Assembly (NCBI GenBank): GCA_015069465.1
Contig: SVIO01000007.1
Span: 1 to 64,000, forward strand
Length of the DNA stretch: 64,000 bases
Direction: 5' to 3'
From: Clostridiales bacterium
Lineage (GTDB): Bacteria > Bacillota > Clostridia > Christensenellales > Borkfalkiaceae
This document shows positions 5,349-28,295 of this stretch, piece after piece. Position numbers and translations under genes: made by a program. Numbering within the stretch: the stretch's first letter is position 1; every line of letters begins with the position of its first letter. The notes under the pieces are model-generated. The model saw nothing but the letters and a program-made list of their open reading frames with translations, searched no databases and was not told the origin of the DNA.

Positions 5349-6023
5349 ATGAACATTTTATTAGTAGATGATGAACGTCAATTTGTTGAAGCAATTGCTG
5401 TTATTCTTAAACAGCACAAATATTCGGTTGACTGTGCTTTTGACGGCGAACAAGGTTTAGATTACATTAACTCTGGTATATATGACCTTATTATATTAGA
5501 TGTTATGATGCCTAGAATCGATGGCTTTTCTTTGCTTAAAATTATTAGGCAAAAAAAGATTGACGTGCCTGTTTTAATGCTTTCGGCTAAAAGTGAAATT
5601 TCAGACAAGATTGAAGGCTTAAATTCTGGCGCTGATGATTACATAACTAAGCCTTTCCACACTGATGAACTTTTAGCAAGAATCAAGGCGCTTTTAAGAA
5701 GAAAAGAAAAATTTACAGGCGACATTTTGTCTTTTAACGACATTTCTTTAGATAGAGATTCTTTTGAACTTGTTAGGGGCGAAAAAAGAATTGCGCTTGG
5801 CAAAAAAGAATTCCAAATTTTAGAAATGCTTATGCTTAATAGTGGCAGGAGTATTGATAAAGAGAGATTTATAGAAAAGATTTGGGGTTTTGACACCGAT
5901 GCCGAGTATAACACAGTTGAAGTGTATGTTTCTTTTCTTAGAAAAAAACTTTTGGCCGTTGGCGCTAAAACCGAAATCAAGTCTTTGCGTGGCATAGGCT
6001 ATACTCTTGGAGAAAATAAATGA
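5349..6023 (+). CDS. OmpR/PhoB-family response regulator
   Basis: A 224-residue two-component response regulator. The receiver domain (1-115) has the acidic pair Asp7-Asp8, phospho-acceptor Asp51 in LIILDVMMP and Lys101 in ITKPFH. The C-terminal winged-helix DNA-binding domain (about 125-222) has the OmpR-type end SLRGIGYTLG. Its stop overlaps the start of the histidine kinase by 4 bases (ATGA), so kinase and regulator are translated as a pair. The start codon is predicted leaderless. The nearest outward gene is the NlpC/P60 lipoprotein, divergent and possibly a target (inference only). Confidence 0.93.
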   Translation: MNILLVDDERQFVEAIAVILKQHKYSVDCAFDGEQGLDYINSGIYDLIILDVMMPRIDGFSLLKIIRQKKIDVPVLMLSAKSEISDKIEGLNSGADDYITKPFHTDELLARIKALLRRKEKFTGDILSFNDISLDRDSFELVRGEKRIALGKKEFQILEMLMLNSGRSIDKERFIEKIWGFDTDAEYNTVEVYVSFLRKKLLAVGAKTEIKSLRGIGYTLGENK

Positions 6024-7433: not shown

Positions 7434-9697
7434 TATTTTACTTTTGCCCTTTTATTGTGAATTTTTATACATATTGCCGACAAAATTGCAATTCCTATTA
7501 CTATAAATGATGTCCACCACCATGAAAGCACTAAATATACTATCGTGCTTGTCATGTATGAAGTTAAAACCCAAAACAAAATTGTCCATTTTGCCGTGCC
7601 CTTTTTAAGTTCGCCCCTTGCCGTTGCAACCGATGCAAAGCATGGAATTGTTGTCATGTTAAACACGATAAACGATATCATTGCTGGCCATAATGAATAT
7701 GCAGACACATTTATGTCACTAGCAATATATCTTATTATTTCAGCCACTTCAAAAGCGCCGTCTTCTGTTGCAATAAGCGTTGCACCAATGCACCCTGCAA
7801 GCGTTGCAAAGGTTGCTATAACGTTTTCTTTTGCTATTAAACCTGTAATCGCTGCAACCACGAATACCCAACCATAAGTGCCAAGTTGACTTCCAAAGCC
7901 GAGTGGTGTAAATATTGGTTGCATAAACTTGCCAATAGATGCCAAAATAGAACTATCGATTTCGCACATTTTCCAATCCCAACCAAAGTTAGATAAAAAC
8001 CAAATTAGTATTGTTGAAAATAGAATTATTGTAAATGCTTTTTCGATATAGTGCTTTGCTTTATCCCACATATGTATCATTAAGTTCTTAAAACTTGGTG
8101 CATGATATGCTGGGAGTTCCATGATAAATGGTGCTATTTCACCCTTTTGAGTTGTTGAACGCATTAAGATTATAGAAATTACTGCAACTGCTAATCCCAA
8201 AACATACATAGAATATGTTATTATGTCAGCATTGCCAAAGCCACAAGCCGAAACGATTGCACCTGCAACTGCAACTAAGATTGGCACTTTTGCACCACAA
8301 GTGAAAAATGGAATAACCCTTAAGGTCATTATCTTTTCTCTATCATCAGCAAGCGTTCTAGTGTTTATCATGGCAGGTACAGAGCAACCAAAGCCCATTA
8401 TCATAGGAATAAACGCTCTGCCACTTACACCAAATTTTCTAAAGAGTTTGTCGAGAATAAAGGCAACCCTTGCCATATATCCACTGTCTTCTAAAATGGA
8501 AATGAGAAGTAGCAAGAATACTATTTGTGGAATAAAACTGAGTATTCCACCAAGGCCTGCAAATATACCATCATTAAATAGTCCTATAACCCAACTTGAT
8601 GCGCCTAAACTTTCTATAAGTCCACCTAAATATTCAAATAAGGTTGAAGTTAAAAGTTCCATTAGGTTAAAAAGTATAACGCCCGGTGAATATATCACAC
8701 CATCATAAACGCAGGCGAGTAGCGATGTCCAAAAAGTGTCTGGCAAATTTAAACTTTCAATGGTTGGCAGATTAAATATGCTTCCAAGCCACAAAAAGTT
8801 TTCTGAAAAGGTTAAGTGGAATATACCAAAAAGTATTACTAAAAAGATAGGTATCCCCACCCACTTGTTTGTTAAAACCCTATCGGCTTTATCCGATTTA
8901 GAAAACTTTATCCCTTTATTACTTCTAACTAATAGTGGAGAATAGTACTTTGATATATGTTTATACCTTGCATCTGCAACGAGTGCATCGATATCACTGC
9001 CAAACACTTCGCTATCAAAGGTCTTTTTAAAATCATCAACCATCTTGACAGTTTGTGGGTGCATCTGCATCTCGATTTCGTCGTTTTCAACAAGTTTTAC
9101 TGCGTGAAAAAGCGAGTTATCCACCCCCTGACCTTCAAGTGCAATTCTTACGTCACCTATAAGGTGCTCTAGTTCGCCACCTTCTAACACCGAAACGCCT
9201 TTTCTATCATTTTTGCTGAACTCAATCGCCCTGTCCATAAGTTCATCTAAGCCTTCGCTCTTAAATGCCGAAATTTTTATAACAGGCACGCCAAGTCTTT
9301 TTTCCAACTGCTTTTCATCAATCTTGTCGCCTTGCCTTTCAAGCATATCCATCATATTAAGAGCAACCACGACAGGAACGTCTATTTCCATAATTTGCGT
9401 TGTTAAATATAGGTTGCGCTCTAAGTTTGTTACGTCAACAATATTGATAACGCACTCTGGCTTTTCATCTAATATGTAGTTCCTTGAGATTACTTCTTCT
9501 GATGTATAAGGCGAAAGCGAATATATCCCCGGCAAGTCAACAATTTCTACTTGTTCGCTTGCTTTTTTATAAACGCCCACCTTTTTATCAACGGTCACCC
9601 CCGGCCAGTTTCCAACGTGAGCCGTTGAGCCTGTTAAACTATTAAAAAGCGTTGTCTTTCCACTGTTTGGATTACCAACTAATGCAAACTTTCTCAT
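7433..9697 (-). CDS. feoB: Ferrous iron transport protein B
   Basis: The 754-residue membrane Fe(II) transporter. The cytosolic N-terminal GTPase has G1 GNPNSGKT (8-15), G3 DLPG (54-57) and G4 NMMD (114-117), followed by a GDI-like helical region to about residue 275. The rest is polytopic, with the paired Gate motifs and conserved Cys in MGFGCSVPAM and FFTCGAKVPI. Length and order are standard. The start overlaps the feoA stop by 4 bases (ATGA), and the FeoB-associated small protein follows with a 1-base overlap, making a compact three-gene iron-uptake operon. Confidence 0.97.
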   Translation of the reverse strand: MRKFALVGNPNSGKTTLFNSLTGSTAHVGNWPGVTVDKKVGVYKKASEQVEIVDLPGIYSLSPYTSEEVISRNYILDEKPECVINIVDVTNLERNLYLTTQIMEIDVPVVVALNMMDMLERQGDKIDEKQLEKRLGVPVIKISAFKSEGLDELMDRAIEFSKNDRKGVSVLEGGELEHLIGDVRIALEGQGVDNSLFHAVKLVENDEIEMQMHPQTVKMVDDFKKTFDSEVFGSDIDALVADARYKHISKYYSPLLVRSNKGIKFSKSDKADRVLTNKWVGIPIFLVILFGIFHLTFSENFLWLGSIFNLPTIESLNLPDTFWTSLLACVYDGVIYSPGVILFNLMELLTSTLFEYLGGLIESLGASSWVIGLFNDGIFAGLGGILSFIPQIVFLLLLISILEDSGYMARVAFILDKLFRKFGVSGRAFIPMIMGFGCSVPAMINTRTLADDREKIMTLRVIPFFTCGAKVPILVAVAGAIVSACGFGNADIITYSMYVLGLAVAVISIILMRSTTQKGEIAPFIMELPAYHAPSFKNLMIHMWDKAKHYIEKAFTIILFSTILIWFLSNFGWDWKMCEIDSSILASIGKFMQPIFTPLGFGSQLGTYGWVFVVAAITGLIAKENVIATFATLAGCIGATLIATEDGAFEVAEIIRYIASDINVSAYSLWPAMISFIVFNMTTIPCFASVATARGELKKGTAKWTILFWVLTSYMTSTIVYLVLSWWWTSFIVIGIAILSAICIKIHNKRAKVK

Positions 9698-19011: not shown

Positions 19012-20085
19012 TTATTTTGTTAGTAGTTCTTTAATAACAGGGGTCATAACGTCTGCTATTCGCATTGCACCAAGGTCGTTTGGATGAGCGCCGTCAACCG
19101 TGCAACAATCCCTTTCAACAGTGCCATAAAACGACTTGCCTGTTATGAAAACGAACTTCGTATCACCGTCTGCAATTATTTTTTCAGCAGTATTAAGAAC
19201 AATCTCTTCCCTTTCTGGATTTGATGAATAATCGACATTTGGGAAATCCCACAATAAAATACCTGCATCTCTATGCTTTTCCCTTAACCTTTCATAAATT
19301 GAATATAATGGTGGCAAAACTTTTGGGTCTTTTTTAAACATGTAATAATTAAACGCAAAAATTGAGCCGTCAAACGAGTTAACGTAATCTATCATAGTTG
19401 CTTCTGCATTGCCGTTGCCTGAAAATCCAAGGTTAACATAATCTGCATTTAGCCTTCTTCCTATAATAGAAACAAAATCATTGCCTGGTCTTGACACACA
19501 CGCACCTTGCGTTATTGAACTGCCATAAAAAATTATTGGCTTTGTTATAGCATAGTCAGGTGCTTTTTCTATGATGCTTTCTGGTGCAACGCCGATATAT
19601 AACTCAGATACACCACCATAGAGTGGAAAGTATATTTCGATTAGTTTTTTACCTTCTGGTTTTAATAGATTTTTCTTGTCTGCAAAATAGATTTTTTCGC
19701 CTTTAACAAAAGTTTTTGCAAATGCTTTTGGCGTTGGCGAATATCTATTTTGGAAAAATCCGTCTGCATATACCGAAAATCCGTGGCTTGCCGTGATTGT
19801 CATATGTGACATTACCGAAAAATATGGAATTGATGCTTTTATTGCTATGTATGGGGAATCGGTCACAAAACGAATTCTGCCACCTGCTGTCATCTTTCCA
19901 AGTGCAACAACGTATTCGTTGGTTTTTATTGCAACTTCTTCTGGAACACGCCTATATAGACCTTCTTTTTCATCAAAGTAAACGCCGTGAAGTGAAATTC
20001 TTTTATCGTGCGCACTTATAAACTTAACCCCCTCGCAGTTGCCAGACACGGCGGCAAGATTGGGGTCCATTTTTTCTATATCCAT
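19012..20085 (-). CDS. SGNH/GDSL hydrolase, copy 1
   Basis: A 357-residue hydrolase with an N-terminal beta-rich GxDLY-like domain (about 20-165; HGFSVYADGF matches its signature) and a C-terminal SGNH domain. Catalytic Ser is in YGSSITQG, block II/III in GFSGNGNAEA, and the Asp/His pair in DGAHPNDLGA. Such enzymes deacylate or de-esterify carbohydrates or lipids. No signal peptide is seen. The longer ORF start at 20157 is rejected: copy 2 begins at the same MDIEKMDPN and an AGGAG site precedes it. The N-terminal two thirds are almost identical to copy 2, while the C-terminal third differs strongly. Confidence 0.82.
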   Translation of the reverse strand: MDIEKMDPNLAAVSGNCEGVKFISAHDKRISLHGVYFDEKEGLYRRVPEEVAIKTNEYVVALGKMTAGGRIRFVTDSPYIAIKASIPYFSVMSHMTITASHGFSVYADGFFQNRYSPTPKAFAKTFVKGEKIYFADKKNLLKPEGKKLIEIYFPLYGGVSELYIGVAPESIIEKAPDYAITKPIIFYGSSITQGACVSRPGNDFVSIIGRRLNADYVNLGFSGNGNAEATMIDYVNSFDGSIFAFNYYMFKKDPKVLPPLYSIYERLREKHRDAGILLWDFPNVDYSSNPEREEIVLNTAEKIIADGDTKFVFITGKSFYGTVERDCCTVDGAHPNDLGAMRIADVMTPVIKELLTK

Positions 20086-20128
20086 TTTTGCTCCTTTTTT
20101 ATTATATATAATTTGATTAGTTAGGCAA

Positions 20129-20157
20129 ATTATAGCATAAAAACTAATTTTTATCAA
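20129..20157 (-). promoter_or_regulatory. Promoter of SGNH hydrolase 1
   Basis: TTGATA (20152-20157), 17 bases, TATAAT (20129-20134). A 7-bp inverted repeat TAATTTG/CAAATTA covers the start region (20109-20132). Confidence 0.75.
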
Positions 20158-20226: not shown

Positions 20227-21849
20227 ATGAAAAAATTTATATCATTAATTCTCTCTATACTTCTTGTTTTTTCATTAGCAATTTTTACGGGTTGCGAATG
20301 TGAACATGATTACGGAGAATGGGAAGTAACAACAGAAGCAACAACTTCTGCTGATGGGCTACAAACAAGAAAATGTAGTAAATGTGGTGACAAAAAGGAA
20401 AAAGTTATAAATAAAAAATACCTTCTTGATTTGTCGGTAAATGAACCTACATATGGCACAGTTACCCCAGAAGGAAATAACGAAATTTCTTGGGGAGAAA
20501 GCGTTACTATAACGGCACAACCTGAAGACATTGCAAGTTTTGAAGGCTGGTATAATGGTGAAACATTGGTTAGCGACCTTGCTTCTTACACATTTACAAT
20601 GCCTGAAGAAAACGTTACCCTTACAGCAAAGTTTATTTACACTGCTTGGCTTGGCGACGTGGCTGATAGTTTTGCTGGTGGAAACGGCTCAACTGATTCG
20701 CCATACCTTATTTCTAATGGTGCTGAGCTTGCTTATTTATCAAGCGTTCTTTCAAACCCAACCACAGCGCCAACATACAAGAACAAAAACTTTGCCTTAA
20801 CATCAAACATTTGTCTTGGTGGAAAGGAGTGGAAACCTATTGGCCCATTCAACACATCAAATGGCACTAATGGTGATTTAGTTTTCACAGGTAATTTCTA
20901 TGGTCAAGGTTATACTATAAGCAACTATAAAATTACTACGCTTCAAAACTCTAAGCACACTTACTTTGGTCTTTTTGGTATGGTAGAAGGCAATATTTAT
21001 AACCTACATATTGCAAAGGCTGTTATGAACCTTAATTTTGCATCAACTGGTGTTGTTCGTGCAGGACTTTTGGTTGGTCAAGTTCGTAATGGTGGCGTTT
21101 TTGATTGTTCTATTAAGGGCGAAGCTGATGTAAGAGTAAGTGAAAACTATGCACTCTTCCTTGGTGGTATCGCTGGTGCAACTTACCACTCTAACATTTA
21201 TAGATGCTCTTTTGAAGGTAAAGTTTCAGCAAGCAATAGTTACTATAACTCAATGTTATCTGGCCCTGCTGTTTACGTTGGTGGTTTGGTTGGCTATGGT
21301 GGAGCGCAATCTCCATCACCACAAACGCCTAATGAAATTAAAGATTGTTATGCTATTACAACATCGATTTATGGCAGTTCAAGTTCTGGCGATACTGACG
21401 TTGGTGGTATTTTAGGCAATGGCTATGAATACACCACAAACATTACTAATTGTTATCATATAGGAACTGTTGGTGGGGGTGCTAAAAGGTATCTTCGTGT
21501 TGGTGGTATTGCTGGACAAGCATTTATAACAAAGAACTGCTATCATAAAGGCAATATCAACGTTGGTGGTACTAGCACTTCTAAACAATATGCTTTAGGC
21601 GTTGCTTCTGTTAGAGGTTCTTATACAGCAAACATTTACGTTAATGGCATAAAATATAATGGTGGCTCACAAGACACAAGTATAAATAGTTTATATGAAG
21701 TTCTTACGGTGCTTGATGCAACTAACTACGTATCTTTCTTTACACAAACTATGGCACTTGATGCAAACGTTTGGGATTTAACAATGCTTGACTTTGAAAA
21801 CAGCGTTTATCCTACCCTTAAAAGTGCTAATCCAATAGTATTTGCTTAA
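20227..21849 (+). CDS. Surface lipoprotein with InlB-like repeat and GLUG repeats
   Basis: A 540-residue secreted lipoprotein. The signal peptide ends IFTGC (lipidated Cys23). Next is a short HDYGEWEV...RKCSKCGDKKE module common in clostridial surface proteins, then a bacterial beta-repeat (about 75-140; VTITAQPEDIASFEGWYNGE and MPEENVTLTAKF), then GLUG-type repeats with GGIAG, GGLVG, GGILG and VGGIAG cores and NCYH, the pattern of beta-helical adhesins or polysaccharide-binding proteins. No cell-wall sorting signal at the C-terminus. Placed between two SGNH hydrolases, it may bind the glycan that they deacylate (inference). Confidence 0.8.
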   Translation: MKKFISLILSILLVFSLAIFTGCECEHDYGEWEVTTEATTSADGLQTRKCSKCGDKKEKVINKKYLLDLSVNEPTYGTVTPEGNNEISWGESVTITAQPEDIASFEGWYNGETLVSDLASYTFTMPEENVTLTAKFIYTAWLGDVADSFAGGNGSTDSPYLISNGAELAYLSSVLSNPTTAPTYKNKNFALTSNICLGGKEWKPIGPFNTSNGTNGDLVFTGNFYGQGYTISNYKITTLQNSKHTYFGLFGMVEGNIYNLHIAKAVMNLNFASTGVVRAGLLVGQVRNGGVFDCSIKGEADVRVSENYALFLGGIAGATYHSNIYRCSFEGKVSASNSYYNSMLSGPAVYVGGLVGYGGAQSPSPQTPNEIKDCYAITTSIYGSSSSGDTDVGGILGNGYEYTTNITNCYHIGTVGGGAKRYLRVGGIAGQAFITKNCYHKGNINVGGTSTSKQYALGVASVRGSYTANIYVNGIKYNGGSQDTSINSLYEVLTVLDATNYVSFFTQTMALDANVWDLTMLDFENSVYPTLKSANPIVFA

Positions 21850-21931: not shown

Positions 21932-23008
21932 TTAAATACCCAATAACTTTTTAATTGCTGGGGTAAACGCATCTGCCATACGCATTGCACCAAGGTCATT
22001 TGGGTGCAAGCCATCGACAGTGCAACTATCTCTTTCCCCTACTCCAAATAGGTCTATTGCTGGAACGAGCGCAACATTTTTATCGCCGTTTGCAATCGCC
22101 CTTTCATAAGTATCTAAAATAGTTTGTTCCCTTTGAATATTCTTATCATAATCACAGCAAGGCTTGTCAGTTAAGAGTATGCCTGCCGTTGGGTGCTTTT
22201 CTCTTATCCTTTCATAAATCGAATAATGTGGTGGCAAAACTCTATCAGGGAAATTTGCATATAAGTTATAGTCAAAACAATAAATCGAGCCATCAAACGA
22301 GTTGATAAAGTCAACCATGTTAGCTTCTGCATTTCCATTTCCTGAAAACCCAAGGTTAACATAGTCTGCGTTAAGCCTTCTTCCAATAATAGAAATGTAA
22401 TCGTTACCAGGTCTTGATACACAAGCACCTTGCGTTAAAGAACTGCCATAGAACACCATTGGTTTTGTGATAGCATAGTCTGGCGCTTTTTCTATGATGC
22501 TTTCTGGTGCAACGCCGATATATAACTCAGATACCCCACCATAGAGTGGAAAGTATATTTCGATTAGTTTTTTACCTTCTGGTTTTAATAGATTTTTCTT
22601 GTCTGCAAAATAGATTTTTTCGCCCTTAGCAAAGGTCTTTGCAAATGCTTTTGGCGTTGGCGAATATCTATTTTGAAAAAATCCATCTGCATATACCGAA
22701 AAGCCGTGACTTCCCGTTATGGTCATATGCGACATTATAGAAAAATATGGAATTGATGCCTTTATTGCTATGTATGGCGAGTCTGTTATAAAACGAATTC
22801 TGCCACCTGCTGTCATTTTGCCAAGTGCAACCATATATTCGCTTGAAAGTTTTGCAACTTCTTCTGGAACACGCCTATATATTCCTTCTGTTTCATCAAA
22901 GTAAACGCCGTGAAGTGAAATTCTTTCATCGTGCGCACTTATAAACTTAACCCCCTCGCAGTTGCCAGACACGGCGGCAAGATTAGGGTCCATTTTTTCT
23001 ATATCCAT
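21932..23008 (-). CDS. SGNH/GDSL hydrolase, copy 2
   Basis: A 358-residue paralogue of the hydrolase at 19012-20085, with the same layout: GxDLY-like N-terminal domain, nucleophile in YGSSLTQG, GFSGNGNAEA and DGLHPNDLGA with the catalytic Asp/His. The first 230 or so residues differ from copy 1 at only a few positions, and the DNA is also near-identical, whereas residues 235-330 (after NSFDGSI) differ extensively. This step in similarity suggests gene conversion of the 5' part, or selection for divergent specificity in the lid region. Ribosome site AAAGGAG, own promoter at 23052-23081. Confidence 0.82.
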   Translation of the reverse strand: MDIEKMDPNLAAVSGNCEGVKFISAHDERISLHGVYFDETEGIYRRVPEEVAKLSSEYMVALGKMTAGGRIRFITDSPYIAIKASIPYFSIMSHMTITGSHGFSVYADGFFQNRYSPTPKAFAKTFAKGEKIYFADKKNLLKPEGKKLIEIYFPLYGGVSELYIGVAPESIIEKAPDYAITKPMVFYGSSLTQGACVSRPGNDYISIIGRRLNADYVNLGFSGNGNAEANMVDFINSFDGSIYCFDYNLYANFPDRVLPPHYSIYERIREKHPTAGILLTDKPCCDYDKNIQREQTILDTYERAIANGDKNVALVPAIDLFGVGERDSCTVDGLHPNDLGAMRMADAFTPAIKKLLGI

Positions 23009-23051
23009 TTTTGCTCCTTTATGATAAGATTTTATTTAATGAATTAAATAA

Positions 23052-23081
23052 ATTATATCATTAAACACCAAAAAAAATCAA
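23052..23081 (-). promoter_or_regulatory. Promoter of SGNH hydrolase 2 with downstream inverted repeat
   Basis: TTGATT (23076-23081), 18 bases, TATAAT (23052-23057). Just downstream, TTTATTTAAT and ATTAAATAAA (23031-23052) form a perfect 10-bp inverted repeat around GA, an operator candidate. Confidence 0.65.
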
Positions 23082-23099
23082 GGGGTTTTGATAAAATAA

Positions 23100-23128
23100 A
23101 AATATCCACTTCTAATAAGTGGATATTT
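23100..23128 (-). terminator. Terminator of the Mrr-type nuclease gene
   Basis: AAATATCCACTT/AAGTGGATATTT, 12-bp stem with a 5-base loop, T-rich on both sides. Confidence 0.85.
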
Positions 23129-23146
23129 TTTATATATTTATTCTCT

Positions 23147-23187
23147 TAATTATTTATTTAATGCTTACTAAGGTGCAACTGCGCATG
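23147..23187 (-). repeat. 41-bp direct repeat, copy C (fragment of the GGGtGRT gene 3' end)
   Basis: Forty-one bases identical to 24928-24968. They correspond to the last codons, stop and first bases after the GGGtGRT gene, but carry the mutations of decayed copy B (TTAGTAAGC instead of the functional end), so C was made from B and not from the intact gene. With copy B it brackets the Mrr-type nuclease gene. Confidence 0.9.
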
Positions 23188-23212
23188 ATATCAATTATAA
23201 CACCACTTTGTT

Positions 23213-24631
23213 TTATACTTCACTTATCTTTTCAATTAGTTTTTCTCTATCCCATAATATTACGTTATTTGCATTTGCAAGGGCGATTGCACTTTTTGTA
23301 AAATAATTGTTTGTCACAACATAGCATAAATTTGCATTATAAATTTTTGAACCTGCGACCACTTCCATTATTGCATGATTCCCAACAGGTTGATTATAAT
23401 GCTTTGCTTGAATTGCTATTTTTCTTCCTTTTCCTTCTGCAATAACATCTACACCTTGGTCACCACTCAATTTAGTGTGAGAAGTTGTATATCCCAGCAA
23501 AGAAAAAAGTTCTGTGACAAAATTTTCAAACTCTTGTCCGTCCATAGCATCAATTTGTGATATATTATATGTTTTTTTCTCAATGTGTTTTTGATTTTTT
23601 AGTGTTTCAATATAATCTTTTGCTTTAATCTTTTTTATTCTATTTTTTGTTTCGCATAGTATCATTTCTGCATATTGACATTTAAATTTAGCAAGAGTTA
23701 AACCTTTCTCATATTTTGAAAATACATAAAAAACAAAATACAACACATCTTGTAATAAAAACTCTTCATTCTCAATTTGTTGTTCCCTATCAAAAATATC
23801 TTTTATTATTCTAAATATAAATTCACGATTATCCATTGTTTCTGGTTTATCTATATTTATTTCTAGCCAGCTTTTGTTTTTTATAAACTTTTCATCTTTA
23901 AAATTTTCTATAATTAATGCATACCATATAAAACATATTGCAAAACAAAAAAACCATTGTTCTTGAGTGTTGTTTTCCACCACTTGTAATAACTCATCAC
24001 TACAAATTATAGAGTTTGCAAATTTTTTAAGTTCCTTTAACATTTGACCATATTTTTGCCAAGCACTTTTTTCATATTCACTTTTTGGAACAAAAGAATC
24101 GTTTTCTATTATACTTATTATTATTTTTCGAATAGCCCTTCCAACTAAAAAATCGTGACGAACCTCATCCTCTTCTTTTCTAATTATTATCGAATTCATA
24201 TTCTTTAATGCCTTAGTATAAATTGTATCATTTATATCGTCTGGAACATTGCATCTAAACATTATACGAACAGGCTCCGTTTCGCTTAAAATCTCCCATG
24301 CATCATATGGTGAAAAAACATAATCTAAATAAGATGGGAAAACTCTTTTAAATTTCGTATTACAAAATGCACATAAAACATCCAACTTTTCTTTATTTTT
24401 TAAATATTCAACATATTTACTTACGCTCAATATTTCCTGCTTAATTTTTTCTTGTTTATCAATCTTGCAAACTTTTTCTTCAGGCTTATCATTCTTTATG
24501 ACAATTGAAGAAGAATCTCTAAATGATTTCCTTACATTTATTTGTTTTCTTTTCGCCTTAGAACTTACAATAATTATTATTATAAGCATAACAATCACAT
24601 AAGTTATTGGAATTAATAAAACTCCCCACAT
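23213..24631 (-). CDS. Membrane-anchored Mrr-type restriction endonuclease-like protein
   Basis: A 472-residue protein with one N-terminal membrane helix (about 3-24, MWGVLLIPITYVIVML onward) and a basic stretch, so the rest should be cytosolic. The C-terminal 110 residues are an Mrr-like PD-(D/E)xK nuclease domain: DGQEFENFVTELFSLLGY, the active-site Asp in SGDQGVDVIAEG and QAK in IAIQAKHYNQPVG. The middle 300 residues, with one CAFC motif, match nothing I know. The ATG at 24631 follows AAAGGAG; the ORF start at 24649 includes that ribosome site and is rejected. Mrr proteins cut methylated foreign DNA, so antiphage defence is likely. It has its own promoter and is bracketed by 41-bp direct repeats. 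Confidence 0.78.
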   Translation of the reverse strand: MWGVLLIPITYVIVMLIIIIIVSSKAKRKQINVRKSFRDSSSIVIKNDKPEEKVCKIDKQEKIKQEILSVSKYVEYLKNKEKLDVLCAFCNTKFKRVFPSYLDYVFSPYDAWEILSETEPVRIMFRCNVPDDINDTIYTKALKNMNSIIIRKEEDEVRHDFLVGRAIRKIIISIIENDSFVPKSEYEKSAWQKYGQMLKELKKFANSIICSDELLQVVENNTQEQWFFCFAICFIWYALIIENFKDEKFIKNKSWLEINIDKPETMDNREFIFRIIKDIFDREQQIENEEFLLQDVLYFVFYVFSKYEKGLTLAKFKCQYAEMILCETKNRIKKIKAKDYIETLKNQKHIEKKTYNISQIDAMDGQEFENFVTELFSLLGYTTSHTKLSGDQGVDVIAEGKGRKIAIQAKHYNQPVGNHAIMEVVAGSKIYNANLCYVVTNNYFTKSAIALANANNVILWDREKLIEKISEV

Positions 24632-24708
24632 ATTCTCTCCTTTGTACATAAACTTAATATTAAAATAAAAAATATATATTTATTAGCAAACTATAGTTTT
24701 GTTAAATA

Positions 24709-24737
24709 AGTATAACATATCACAAAGCTTTATGCAA
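24709..24737 (-). promoter_or_regulatory. Promoter of the Mrr-type nuclease gene
   Basis: TTGCAT (24732-24737), 17 bases, TATACT (24709-24714). The -35 lies in the inverted repeat ATGCAA-GCCA-TTGCAT (24732-24747), and AAACTATAGTTT (24689-24700) is a second perfect palindrome in the leader; both are possible operators. Confidence 0.65.
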
Positions 24738-24794
24738 GCCATTGCATAATAATCACCCTACATCTTTAACTTTTTTATTGTCTAAATAATAAAG

Positions 24795-24830
24795 AACACA
24801 TCATCGTAGATTTTTCTAAAATGATGTGTT
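24795..24830 (-). terminator. Terminator, duplicate of the GGGtGRT gene terminator
   Basis: AACACATCAT/ATGATGTGTT with a 16-base loop. It is homologous to the hairpin at 26432-26465 (GACACATC...GATGTGTC) and belongs to the duplicated segment. Confidence 0.7.
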
Positions 24831-24870
24831 CAACTTTTTTATTATTATTTTTTGTTTTATAAGATTTTTA

Positions 24871-25060
24871 TAATAGAAATATTAGTTTCTTTAGATTTCA
24901 AAAGCCTTAAAATTGTTAGTGATTTACTAATTATTTATTTAATGCTTACTAAGGTGCAACTGCGCATGCAACTGTCATTTTAGCCTTGGGTTGTTACCAG
25001 CACCGATAAGTCCCATCATTTCTGTGCAATACGAAGTTGAACCAGCAAATTATAAGGGTG
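24871..25060 (-). pseudogene. Decayed copy of the GGGtGRT gene 3' end (copy B)
   Basis: From about 24890 to 25060 the sequence aligns with 26520-26695, the last 130 coding bases of the GGGtGRT gene plus the following spacer, e.g. a shared GGGTTGTTACCAGCACC and AAAAGCCTTAAAATTGTTAG. On the minus strand it still encodes EMMGLIGAGNNP but then frameshifts and ends early. It begins directly after the permease gene stop. It is a displaced or duplicated 3' end without function as protein. Confidence 0.85.
24928..24968 (-). repeat. 41-bp direct repeat, copy B
   Basis: Identical over 41 bases to 23147-23187. It lies inside the decayed 3'-end copy and marks the upstream boundary of the 1.7-kb nuclease segment. 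Confidence 0.9.
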
Positions 25061-25067
25061 TTTGCGT

Positions 25068-26327
25068 TTATACAAACCAGTTAAAGCAACCAATTAGCGC
25101 TATTAAAGCAGTAATTAATATCGAACATACCGACAATAAGAATAATTTAGAAAAAAGTTTATCTCTGCCTTTTTCGGTTGCAATTTTACTTGTAGAATAA
25201 GCCGAAAGCATAAGTCCACCACAACTAGAAAGTGGGCTAAACGCAGCAGCGTTTGCACCGATACAAATACCTGTTACAAGTGCCACTGGGTTTACACCAG
25301 CCGAAGCAGCAAGCGCAGGGACGGTTGGAATAAGTGTTGGCATAACCACACCTGATGCAGATGATACCCAAGACATAACGCCTGCCAATATAGTTATTAT
25401 AGCGGCAGCAGTCTGTTCCCCCATTAATAATCTAATACCGTCTGATAAAAGTTGCACACCTCCAAGTTCCTTTACAAGTGAAATAAGTATGCCTACGCCA
25501 GTTATCATAATAAGGGTATTCCAAGGAATTTTTTTCATTGCTTCAGTTTCATTACCAAAACCACATATACATAAGACTATTGCTACTAAAAATGAAATCA
25601 AGCCAATATCAATGCTAAAAATTGTTGAAAGTGCAGATACTAAAATAATACCTATTATAGTAAACAAATGCTTTATCTCAAACTTAATGTCATTAGAAAT
25701 TTCGGCTTTTTTGTTTTGACTATCATCGTATTTATGCCACTTGAACACAAAGAAATATAAGATTATGGCAATTAAAAGCATTATAATAAACATAAAAAAT
25801 GCAATAGAGAATTCAATGCCAACTATACCACTTTGTTCAGCTTTGGTTATTGCAACTATACCCGATGGAGTTATTGGCGAAAGCCCACCCGAAAAAGCAC
25901 CTAATCCACCGAAAAACAAGAATTTTATAGGCTCTACTTCTGCTTCAATGGCAAGCGCTATTGCAAGTACAGAAACAAGTGCAGTTGCAGAAATAAGTCC
26001 CGGACCAATAAATGAAATTATCGCTGAAAAAAAGAATAAAACAATAGGAATAAGTTTAACCTTTCCTCTGCATAGCAAAATTGCCTTTTTTGCTATAATT
26101 TCAAGGGTTTGGTTGTTTTGCGCAACGCAAAACAAAAACATAACGCCTAAAAGTTTTATAAATAGCGAACTATCAAATGCTTTTAATAGGAATTTATCAG
26201 GAACGCCTGCTATCCTTGCCAAAATTAATGCAAGTGCAATAGAAACAATCCCTGTGTTCTTCTTAAATATACAGCCAATCGCAATAGCAACGGCTAAAAA
26301 AACCAAAGACAATATAGGATATAACAC
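25068..26327 (-). CDS. Anion/dicarboxylate permease (SLC13/ArsB-NhaD superfamily)
   Basis: A polytopic membrane permease of 420 residues with about 11-12 hydrophobic segments. The two half-repeats carry the helical-hairpin motifs GLGAFSGGLSPITPSG and SSASGVVMPTLIPTVPAL, typical of the ion transporter superfamily that includes the MatC/DctM/SLC13 carriers; dicarboxylates are the likely substrate. The long ORF begins at a TTG inside the promoter, so it is not used; the GTG at 26327, after GCGAGG, is the best start. It has its own promoter. The gene lies between the intact and the decayed copy of the GGGtGRT 3' end, so it was probably inserted there. Confidence 0.75.
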   Translation of the reverse strand: MLYPILSLVFLAVAIAIGCIFKKNTGIVSIALALILARIAGVPDKFLLKAFDSSLFIKLLGVMFLFCVAQNNQTLEIIAKKAILLCRGKVKLIPIVLFFFSAIISFIGPGLISATALVSVLAIALAIEAEVEPIKFLFFGGLGAFSGGLSPITPSGIVAITKAEQSGIVGIEFSIAFFMFIIMLLIAIILYFFVFKWHKYDDSQNKKAEISNDIKFEIKHLFTIIGIILVSALSTIFSIDIGLISFLVAIVLCICGFGNETEAMKKIPWNTLIMITGVGILISLVKELGGVQLLSDGIRLLMGEQTAAAIITILAGVMSWVSSASGVVMPTLIPTVPALAASAGVNPVALVTGICIGANAAAFSPLSSCGGLMLSAYSTSKIATEKGRDKLFSKLFLLSVCSILITALIALIGCFNWFV

Positions 26328-26372
26328 AAGTTGAACCTCGCTGAGTATTTTGTACGAATCTACAACGCAATA

Positions 26373-26401
26373 ATTATACAATTAAAAAACATAAAAGTCA
26401 A
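26373..26401 (-). promoter_or_regulatory. Promoter of the permease gene
   Basis: TTGACT (26396-26401), 17 bases, TATAAT (26373-26378); leader about 40 bases to the GTG. The -10 context ATTGTATAATTATTGC is the same as that of the S24/S26 peptidase promoter at 4161. Confidence 0.75.
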
Positions 26402-26431
26402 GAAATTTGTTTTCTTTTTTGTTCATAAAAT

Positions 26432-26465
26432 ATTGGACACATCGCCATAAAATGATGTGTCCAAT
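26432..26465 (-). terminator. Terminator of the NifU-like/GGGtGRT operon
   Basis: ATTGGACACATC/GATGTGTCCAAT, a perfect 12-bp stem with a 10-base loop, followed on the minus strand by ATTTTATG. About 100 bases after the stop codon. Confidence 0.82.
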
Positions 26466-26562
26466 TTGTTTTATTATTATTTTTTGTTAATCAAGATTTT
26501 TACAATTCTACACTAAATAATTAGCCATTTCAAAAGCCTTAAAATTGTTAGTAAAAACCTAA

Positions 26563-27576
26563 TTATTTATTTAATGCTTCTTGAACAGCAACTGCGCATG
26601 CAACGGTCATACCAACCATTGGGTTGTTACCAGCACCTATTAAACCCATCATTTCTACGTGAGCAGGAACTGAACTTGAACCAGCAAATTGTGCGTCAGA
26701 GTGCATTCTTCCCATAGTATCTGTCATACCATAAGATGCAGGGCCTGCTGCCATGTTGTCTGGGTGAAGAGTTCTACCTGTGCCACCACCTGATGCAACT
26801 GAGAAGTAACTTTTGCCATTTTCGATAGCCCATTTCTTATATGTGCCTGCAACAGGGTGTTGGAAACGAGTTGGGTTTGTTGAGTTACCTGTGATAGAAA
26901 CGCCAACGTTTTCGAGTCTCATGATAGCAACGCCTTCTGGAACGCTGTCTGAACCATAGCATTTAACGTTTGCTCTTGCACCCTTAGAGAAAGCCTTTTC
27001 TTCTAAAACTTCAACTTCTTCTGTTGCTGGGTTAAACTTTGTTTCTACATAAGTAAAGCCGTTGATTCTTGAAATAATATATGCAGCATCTTTACCTAAG
27101 CCGTTAAGAATAACTCTTAAAGGTTTAATTCTAACCTTGTTTGCGTTAAGTGCGATTTTGATAGCGCCTTCAGCAGCAGCGAAAGATTCGTGACCAGCAA
27201 GGAAGCAGAAGCATTCTGTTTCTTCTGATAAAAGCATTTTGCCGAGGTTACCATGACCTAAACCTACCTTTCTGTTTTCAGCAACTGAGCCTGGAATACA
27301 GAAAGATTGAAGACCGATACCGATATTAGCAGCAGCTGTTGCAGCAGACTTGTCGCCTGTCTTTTCAGCAGCTTTCAAAGCGATTGCACTACCTACTGTG
27401 TATGCCCATTTAGCATTTTCAAAACAGATAGGTTGTGTTTCCCCTGCGATTGTATAAGGTGAAATGCCATATTTATCACAAATTTCTTTGCATTCATCAA
27501 TAGAGTTAATGCCAAATTCTTTTAACGTTGCAAGAATTTTGGCTTCTCTTCTTTCATAACCTTCAAATTGTGCCAT
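26563..27576 (-). CDS. GGGtGRT-family protein
   Basis: A 337-residue protein carrying the name-giving GGGTGRT at 263-269. The family is widespread in anaerobic Firmicutes and Bacteroidota, always encoded next to a NifU-like scaffold protein, as here (17-base gap); its function is unknown, with a role in iron-sulfur metabolism assumed from the partner. Conserved cysteines at positions 29, 33, 51, 93, 122, 124 and 206 and glycine-rich loops are visible. There is no signal peptide. The 3' end of this gene is repeated twice further downstream (copies B and C). Confidence 0.85.
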   Translation of the reverse strand: MAQFEGYERREAKILATLKEFGINSIDECKEICDKYGISPYTIAGETQPICFENAKWAYTVGSAIALKAAEKTGDKSAATAAANIGIGLQSFCIPGSVAENRKVGLGHGNLGKMLLSEETECFCFLAGHESFAAAEGAIKIALNANKVRIKPLRVILNGLGKDAAYIISRINGFTYVETKFNPATEEVEVLEEKAFSKGARANVKCYGSDSVPEGVAIMRLENVGVSITGNSTNPTRFQHPVAGTYKKWAIENGKSYFSVASGGGTGRTLHPDNMAAGPASYGMTDTMGRMHSDAQFAGSSSVPAHVEMMGLIGAGNNPMVGMTVACAVAVQEALNK

Positions 27577-27593
27577 AATTCATTCCCTCCCTA

Positions 27594-28295
27594 TTACTCT
27601 TTACGTGGGTCAATATACTTAACCACACCATCTTCTGGCTTAAAGCGACCATATGTGCCTTTTGACTTTTCGTATGCTTCGTTTGGTTCCATACCCTTCT
27701 TAATGAAGTCTGTCATTTTGCCGAGTGAAACGAATTCATAACCAACAACTTCGTTATTTTCATCAAGAGCCATCTTTGTGCAATAACCTTCTGTCATTTC
27801 AAGGTATCTAACGCCCTTTGCTTTTGTGCCGTACATTGTACCTACCATTGAACGAGCGCCCTTACCTAAGTCTTCCATACCTGCGCCGATTACTAAGCCA
27901 TCTTCTGAGAAGGCTGATTGTGAACGGCCGTATACGATTTGTAAGAAAAGTTCTCTCATTGCTGTGTTGATAGCATCACAAACCAAGTCTGTGTTTAATG
28001 CTTCGAGCAATGTTTTGCCTGGGAGAATTTCAGCAGCCATTGCTGCAGAGTGTGTCATACCAGAGCAACCAATTGTTTCTACAAGTGCTTCTTCAATAAT
28101 ACCATTTTTAACGTTTAATGAAAGTTTGCAAGCACCTTGTTGTGGTGCACACCAGCCTACACCGTGTGTATATGCAGAAATATCGCTAATTTGTTTAGCT
28201 TCTACCCATCTTCCTTCTTCTGGAATTGGAGCTGGGCCGTGTTTTGGGCCTTTGCATACACAGGTCATTTCTTTAACTTCAGTTGAATACTGCAT
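27594..28295 (-). CDS. NifU-like iron-sulfur scaffold protein, partner of the GGGtGRT protein
   Basis: A 233-residue protein with an IscU/NifU-like segment: HGVGWCAPQQGACKLSL, VETIGCSGMTHSAAMAAEIL, and LVCDAINTAMRELF, with Cys in the positions used for cluster assembly, and CVCKGP near the N-terminus. The C-terminal 90 residues are specific to this family. It is larger than IscU (about 130). It forms a two-gene operon with the GGGtGRT gene behind promoter 28340-28368, with a GGAGG ribosome site. Probably supplies or receives Fe-S clusters for its partner (inference). Confidence 0.82.
   Translation of the reverse strand: MQYSTEVKEMTCVCKGPKHGPAPIPEEGRWVEAKQISDISAYTHGVGWCAPQQGACKLSLNVKNGIIEEALVETIGCSGMTHSAAMAAEILPGKTLLEALNTDLVCDAINTAMRELFLQIVYGRSQSAFSEDGLVIGAGMEDLGKGARSMVGTMYGTKAKGVRYLEMTEGYCTKMALDENNEVVGYEFVSLGKMTDFIKKGMEPNEAYEKSKGTYGRFKPEDGVVKYIDPRKE

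Follow-up and report, generated by a model that had tools for sequence, protein, structure and literature searches.

Probable site-specific accretion of two integrase-less, single-gene segments at the 3' end of a GGGtGRT gene in gut Clostridia

The elements e14 and phage 21 integrate in the 3' end of icd, where they supply an alternative end of the gene and displace the old one. CALIN are integron cassette arrays without an integrase, in which each gene is followed by a cassette-borne attC. CIMEs derive from conjugative or mobilizable elements and are usually much larger than the segments described here. A CIME is an element that has lost its integration and transfer genes and keeps attL and attR, as in the ICESt1-related elements of Streptococcus (PMC5704250). 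The published scheme for the stacking of such elements runs by site-specific integration, decay to a CIME with only attL and attR left, and further integration at an att site (PMC5704250). The ssrA islands of Dehalococcoides lie in tandem behind one gene and are bounded by direct repeats of part of that gene; those treated in detail are about 12 kb, with the tmRNA gene as target and a serine recombinase, and 15 islands without an integration module were proposed to be cis-mobilizable (PMC3146451).

The window, i.e. the whole stretch of 64,000 nucleotides that was analysed, is part of a 1.21-Mb genome (labelled G000 in the comparisons; genome-wide copy counts are from sequence search). Two segments lie behind the 3' end of its GGGtGRT gene (Table 1). 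Like CIMEs, these units form a tandem stack behind the end of a single gene and contain no integration or transfer genes, the only ORFs in both segments being a permease and an Mrr nuclease. They are bounded by putative att sites, formed by locus-specific hairpin left ends and a right arm found across species, and autonomous elements with an integrase were found at the same att site, on a phage contig and at bacterial loci. The window appears to fit the published CIME accretion scheme at a very small scale. The units differ from CIMEs in their size (1.6-1.8 kb), their single gene, their phage-type integrase relatives and their target, GGGtGRT. No conjugation genes were seen at the locus, and the integrase relatives are in phage and prophage-like contigs.

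The tandem arrangement and the repeats of a gene part are shared with the Dehalococcoides islands, and the lack of an integrase with 15 of them. The window differs from these islands in its target, in the tyrosine type of the related recombinase and in its conserved hairpin, a feature that the passages on the islands do not mention. As with e14 and phage 21, the window elements would supply the 3' end of the gene, with the old end at the other junction. However, e14 and phage 21 are full prophages with an integrase, whereas the window units are single-gene, and no integrase lies beside the att sites in the window segments as it would in a prophage or satellite with an integrase of its own. CALIN also have tandem single genes, each with a recombination site (putative in the window) and no integrase nearby, but the site in the window is a copy of the host gene end at one locus and the related recombinase is a phage-type integrase. 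Integron attC sites appear unlikely: single RYYYAAC-like words occur in some displaced ends, no paired GTTRRRY was seen by eye, and the site is the host gene end.

Table 1. Features of the GGGtGRT locus in the window, in the direction of transcription of the GGGtGRT gene
Feature	Position	Strand	Description
GGGtGRT target gene	26563..27576	-	PF14057 E=4e-184, 337 aa; single full copy in genome
Restored attL-side gene end (putative), intact copy	26563-26700	-	3' end of GGGtGRT gene
Left end, segment 1	26430..26562	-	UTR and hairpin 26437-26460 (ACACATCATTTTATGGCGATGTGT); terminator-like
Permease promoter, sigma-70-like	26373..26401	-	TTGACT-17-TATAAT, 11/12 matches
Cargo 1, CitMHS/MatC-like carboxylate permease	25068..26327	-	PF03600 E=1.3e-24, PF07158 E=4e-20
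Displaced gene end no. 1	24931..25051	-	Right junction for segment 1 and left junction for segment 2; non-functional, with in-frame stops
Right arm, segment 1	24974..25028	-	55-bp gene-end mimic with AACCCAAGGCTAAAATGAC, identical to displaced copy in G044
Left end, segment 2	24795..24930	-	UTR and hairpin 24796-24829 (ACACATCATTTTAGAAAAATCTACGATGATGTGT)
Cargo 2, membrane-anchored Mrr-type nuclease	23213..24631	-	Mrr_cat PF04471 E=1.5e-27
Displaced gene end no. 2	23147..23187	-	Right junction of segment 2; 41 bp
Bidirectional terminator hairpin after last displaced end	23098..23130	.	Terminator scan

The first-pass annotation described three successive ends of the GGGtGRT gene, and these were found in that order as direct repeats. 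An 84-bp block is present at 26527-26610, 24895-24978 (86%) and 23114-23197 (core of 41 bp), with start-to-start spacings of 1,632 and 1,781 bp. In the entire genome, no copies of the gene end were significant other than those of the window locus (E=5.5e-36 for 24895-25051 and 7.5e-7 for 23147-23187); they align well above the next best match, at 0.06. Among the 52 window ORFs of at least 100 aa, displaced end copies were found for GGGtGRT alone, the other matches in this screen being two paralogous esterases and one 28-bp match. The perfect match of the 41-bp fragment to the altered middle copy was borne out by alignment: 23147-23187 is 100% identical to the corresponding 41 bp (about 24928-24968), the derived letters GCACCTTAGTAAGC are present in both, and several of its letters differ from the intact gene and agree with the middle copy. 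The middle copy had been read as a decayed end duplicated together with the terminator. Duplication of the terminator stands, as shown by the two left-end hairpins, but mere decay does not, because part of the copy is an element arm common to other species. The hairpin after the last displaced end is probably the older terminator of the GGGtGRT gene. An Rfam scan of 22900-27600 gave no match.

As annotated, each interval contains one gene, the permease alone between the first two ends and the Mrr_cat nuclease alone between the last two. The permease probably starts with GTG at 26327 (ORF open from 26381) and the nuclease with ATG at 24631 (ORF open from 24649). A promoter had been assigned to each gene. 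That of the permease is strong; for the nuclease an extended -10 (TGTTATACT) was seen by eye only and was absent from the scan output. In PADLOC the nuclease matched the Mrr-like C-terminus of ZorD and the candidate family PDC-S02 (E=1.6e-15), making it a candidate defence gene. In the 43 other genomes of the genus, no match to the permease was found, and none to the nuclease save a 43%-identical homologue of its C-terminus in G053. The order of permease and nuclease is therefore not fixed among the relatives.

The left ends have a common layout, consisting of the stop codon, a UTR of about 20-140 bp and a hairpin that typically reads ACACATCATTTT-N-TGATGTGT. By pattern search, no further copy of the two window hairpins was found in the G000 genome. 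In genomes searched singly, the hairpin was present only at the GGGtGRT locus, twice in G000 and once each in G018, G006, G056, G053, G331, G377 and G315, and a reversed pattern used as control gave 0 matches in the 16 genomes so searched. The pattern occurred in 17 of the 398 genomes of the family, where some matches are unrelated GC-rich hairpins; the match in G337 is 1.7 kb away from the GGGtGRT gene. G018, G006, G331, G315 and others have a left end homologous to that of segment 1. Taken with the gene end next to it, the left end of segment 2 is 81.6% identical to the G018 left end over 271 bp and only 78% to segment 1 over 245 bp, i.e. less than to G018. In hairpin units without an integrase, similarity drops to background within about 15 nt past the hairpin.

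At the right side, AACCCAAGGCTAAAATGAC is common to the displaced copies of G000, G044 (two copies) and RGIG8497, a water-deer MAG, and at this position the intact genes of the genus almost all have a sequence like AACCCNATGGTTGGTATGAC. A derived arm of 19 bp is identical in several species. The left part of the displaced copies is 100% identical between G000 and G044, with 80-83% identity to their own genes. In RGIG8497 the left part is 84-86% identical to the other displaced copies and 80% to its own gene, and the right part 89% identical to its own gene versus 57% to the displaced copy of G000. The switch point is ATGAC: to its left the displaced copies are more like one another than like their own genes, and to its right RGIG8497 is of the host type. 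An element-like left part followed by a host-type right part is what one would expect where an element arm has been joined to the end of a host gene, and the crossover would lie near -45 to -34 from the stop. In the phage-type lineages, arm and gene are too alike to place it. All gene-end matches in the genus were at the GGGtGRT locus, except one weak match of 26 bp; an exact scan of IMG/VR for the mimic core gave no match. The word RCCTWA or its complement (GCACCTTAG, GCCTAAAG, ACCTAACG, AGGCTAAAA) recurs in displaced ends and nearby phage arm DNA (G000 24931-25051, the displaced ends of G044 and G018, L116 of RGIG8497 at 5590-5710, and L145 at 800-870) and is possibly an arm-type integrase site.

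Integrase genes were found at the same gene end elsewhere. A 32-kb IMG/VR contig (IMGVR_UViG_3300018878_002442) contains two tandem units of gene end, hairpin and integrase beside phage-like genes; one integrase is full length (312 aa) and the second is 69% identical. The order GGGtGRT, hairpin, integrase is present in G427 and G563, and G631 has an integrase behind the GGGtGRT end. In two prophage contigs of the viral collection (L152 and L158), the whole GGGtGRT gene is directly followed by an integrase with 50-51% identity. The intact members thus carry the gene-end copy, in most cases the hairpin, and then the integrase. Directly behind GGGtGRT and the hairpin, G331 and G315 contain a truncated tyrosine recombinase (about 153 and about 205 aa, respectively), and in G377 the start of an integrase lies at the contig end. 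The longer truncated protein has a Pfam Phage_integrase domain (E=4e-11) and a phage SAM-like domain, and the 312-aa protein is 75% identical to the truncated integrase over the shared part. The GGGtGRT C-terminus was present in 29 IMG/VR loci, some of which may be untrimmed host flank. Three further IMG/VR hairpin matches (L141-L143), without a GGGtGRT end, were taken as chance, and a search of the phage GenBank collection gave one weak match only. Judged from these sequences, the tyrosine integrases of one family appear to use the GGGtGRT gene end as a phage attachment site. We found no paper naming it as such; papers on GGGtGRT, by title, concern proteome, transcriptome and microbiome.

The absence of an integrase, reported for the window, holds for the G000 genome, whose sole tyrosine recombinase above the threshold is Xer-like (356 aa, on another contig, with length and rank as across the genus). 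No intact integrase of the GGGtGRT-end type was found in G000 or the 398 family genomes, in which the matches were truncated or cut by a contig end. The acting enzyme therefore has to be deduced from other families and from phages: the integrase found elsewhere, which is the likely cognate, or a close relative would have made the window junctions.

Comparison of the locus among related genomes, mostly draft MAGs in which many contigs end at the GGGtGRT site and several exactly there, revealed variable cargo and species with an empty site. A NifU-like gene lies upstream of GGGtGRT in nearly every genome of the genus whose contig reaches it, and the downstream gene is different in nearly every species. 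In G003 and G019 the gene pair F4/F5 begins 76-151 bp past the GGGtGRT stop. In G000, F4 starts 7.6 kb further on and base 7591 aligns to base 136 of G003, indicating that a block was gained or lost between them. Within this block, two paralogous GxDLY/SGNH esterases (19012-20157 and 21932-23008, minus strand) flank an InlB-like/GLUG-repeat protein (20227-21849, plus strand); the trio is missing from G003 and G019 and is not bracketed by GGGtGRT end copies. Empty sites were available for G000 (G003 and G019), G018 (G050) and G331 (G335), and G015 has the neighbourhood of G044 without inserts.

Displaced ends with other cargo were found within the genus in G018, G006 and G044 (twice), and displaced ends outside it in G297, G299, G331, G336 (25 bp only) and RGIG8497. 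Cargo differed between G018, G006, G044 (both units), RGIG8497, G345 (two units) and G299, and included metNIQ with a GH3 glycosidase, a rhamnosidase and an RNase-like protein. In G345 two units are stacked, a metNIQ-like transporter operon and a glycosidase, both named by eye from the sequence. The unit of RGIG8497 (L116, 4994-6553) contains a PBECR4 RNase-like protein and is followed by a second hairpin and a nucleotidyltransferase/HepT-like pair, cargo resembling toxin-antitoxin or defence genes.

We consider it very probable that site-specific integration at the GGGtGRT end produced the tandem, integrase-less, CIME-like accretion in the window. The 3' end of the gene would be the chromosomal attB of tyrosine integrases on phages and related elements, each of which would bring a copy of the last bases of the gene, a UTR and a hairpin terminator. 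Integration would restore the GGGtGRT reading frame and move the old gene end to the far junction, and repeated integration would stack units behind the gene. The window would then hold two tandem insertions, of about 1,632 bp for the permease unit and about 1,781 bp for the Mrr nuclease unit, neither with an integrase, each bounded on the left by a restored or displaced gene end, UTR and hairpin and on the right by an altered gene-end copy. Stepwise insertion by elements that restore the gene end, as proposed in the first-pass annotation, agrees with the integrases at the same end and hairpin, the recombinant displaced copies, the variable cargo and the empty sites. Points against it are that no intact cognate integrase was found in G000 or the family, that the displaced copies vary in length, and that the mimic reaches about 50 bp to the left of the likely crossover, which is unusual for a plain attP. 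The annotation had also placed the permease before the nuclease. The 41-bp identity, which is very unlikely to result from independent decay, fits a nuclease unit that entered the already altered displaced end; this order is plausible and somewhat preferred, but at best moderately probable, because the two displaced copies could also have been made equal by gene conversion.

Homologous recombination (Campbell-type) of incoming linear or circular DNA with a related gene end would require no integrase. Direct repeats of 40-350 bp would suffice, cargo could be swapped between conserved ends, and the displaced copies start at varying positions, between about -20 and -350 bp relative to the stop, with at least 350 bp at 97% identity in G297. 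However, the conserved UTR and hairpin are unique to this site in the genomes searched singly, integrases lie exactly at this gene end in phages and bacteria, and the same 19-bp arm is found in several species, and we therefore regard recombination without an integrase as improbable. If the gene end had been copied by an ordinary segmental duplication and had then decayed, with cargo inserted independently, the degraded, non-coding copies in the window would be accounted for. Yet displaced copies across species share derived letters that are missing from their own genes, which refutes duplication unless the sharing is otherwise explained; the same architecture recurs with differing cargo in several species and genera, and GGGtGRT is the only window gene with such copies. 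Duplication is accordingly given next to no weight.

Within the preferred explanation, site-specific integration, the units would be either larger elements shrunk until one cargo gene was left or minimal cassettes that relied on an integrase in trans. The former, in which a prophage or satellite was stripped to one accessory gene by internal deletion and has since been immobile, is somewhat favoured. The truncated integrases of G331 and G315 are fused to unrelated sequence and look like deletion intermediates. The Mrr nuclease, the PBECR4 protein and the HepT/nucleotidyltransferase pair are genes of an accessory type, kinds known from phages and islands. Decay to a CIME followed by new integration at att is also part of the published accretion model (PMC5704250). 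On the other hand, the permease, metNIQ, the GH3 glycosidase and the rhamnosidase would be unusual cargo for a phage, and the hairpin-bearing units without an integrase retain no trace of one, falling to background so soon after the hairpin. That the one-gene units are live minimal cassettes, spreading among gut Clostridia by means of integrases from phages with the same target gene end, is a tentative and rather unlikely reading.

The findings suggest where phages attach in the chromosome of an uncultivated family of gut Clostridia, provide the integrase family concerned and a hairpin diagnostic of the site, and point to accretion in single-gene steps. Should the units be mobile in trans, such a docking site would also be a site of capture for nutrient and anti-phage genes; if they are live cassettes, one housekeeping gene would act like an integron landing site for metabolic and defence genes. 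The combination of hairpin and gene end provides a simple search tool for more such cargo.

Two versions of the GGGtGRT 3' end were present in G006 (C117:22465-23454 and C167), one of which stops at the contig end and has many synonymous changes in the last 60 bp; this could be a strain mixture or a recoded end. For the displaced copies, a homing or recoded-gene idea was dropped, as they are in direct repeat and an integrase explains them. In the tRNA-Val region of G335 and G331, a tRNA-containing piece is repeated in tandem 0.4-0.8 kb and 1.9-2.4 kb downstream of the gene, with matches of 88-97% at steps of about 114 bp.
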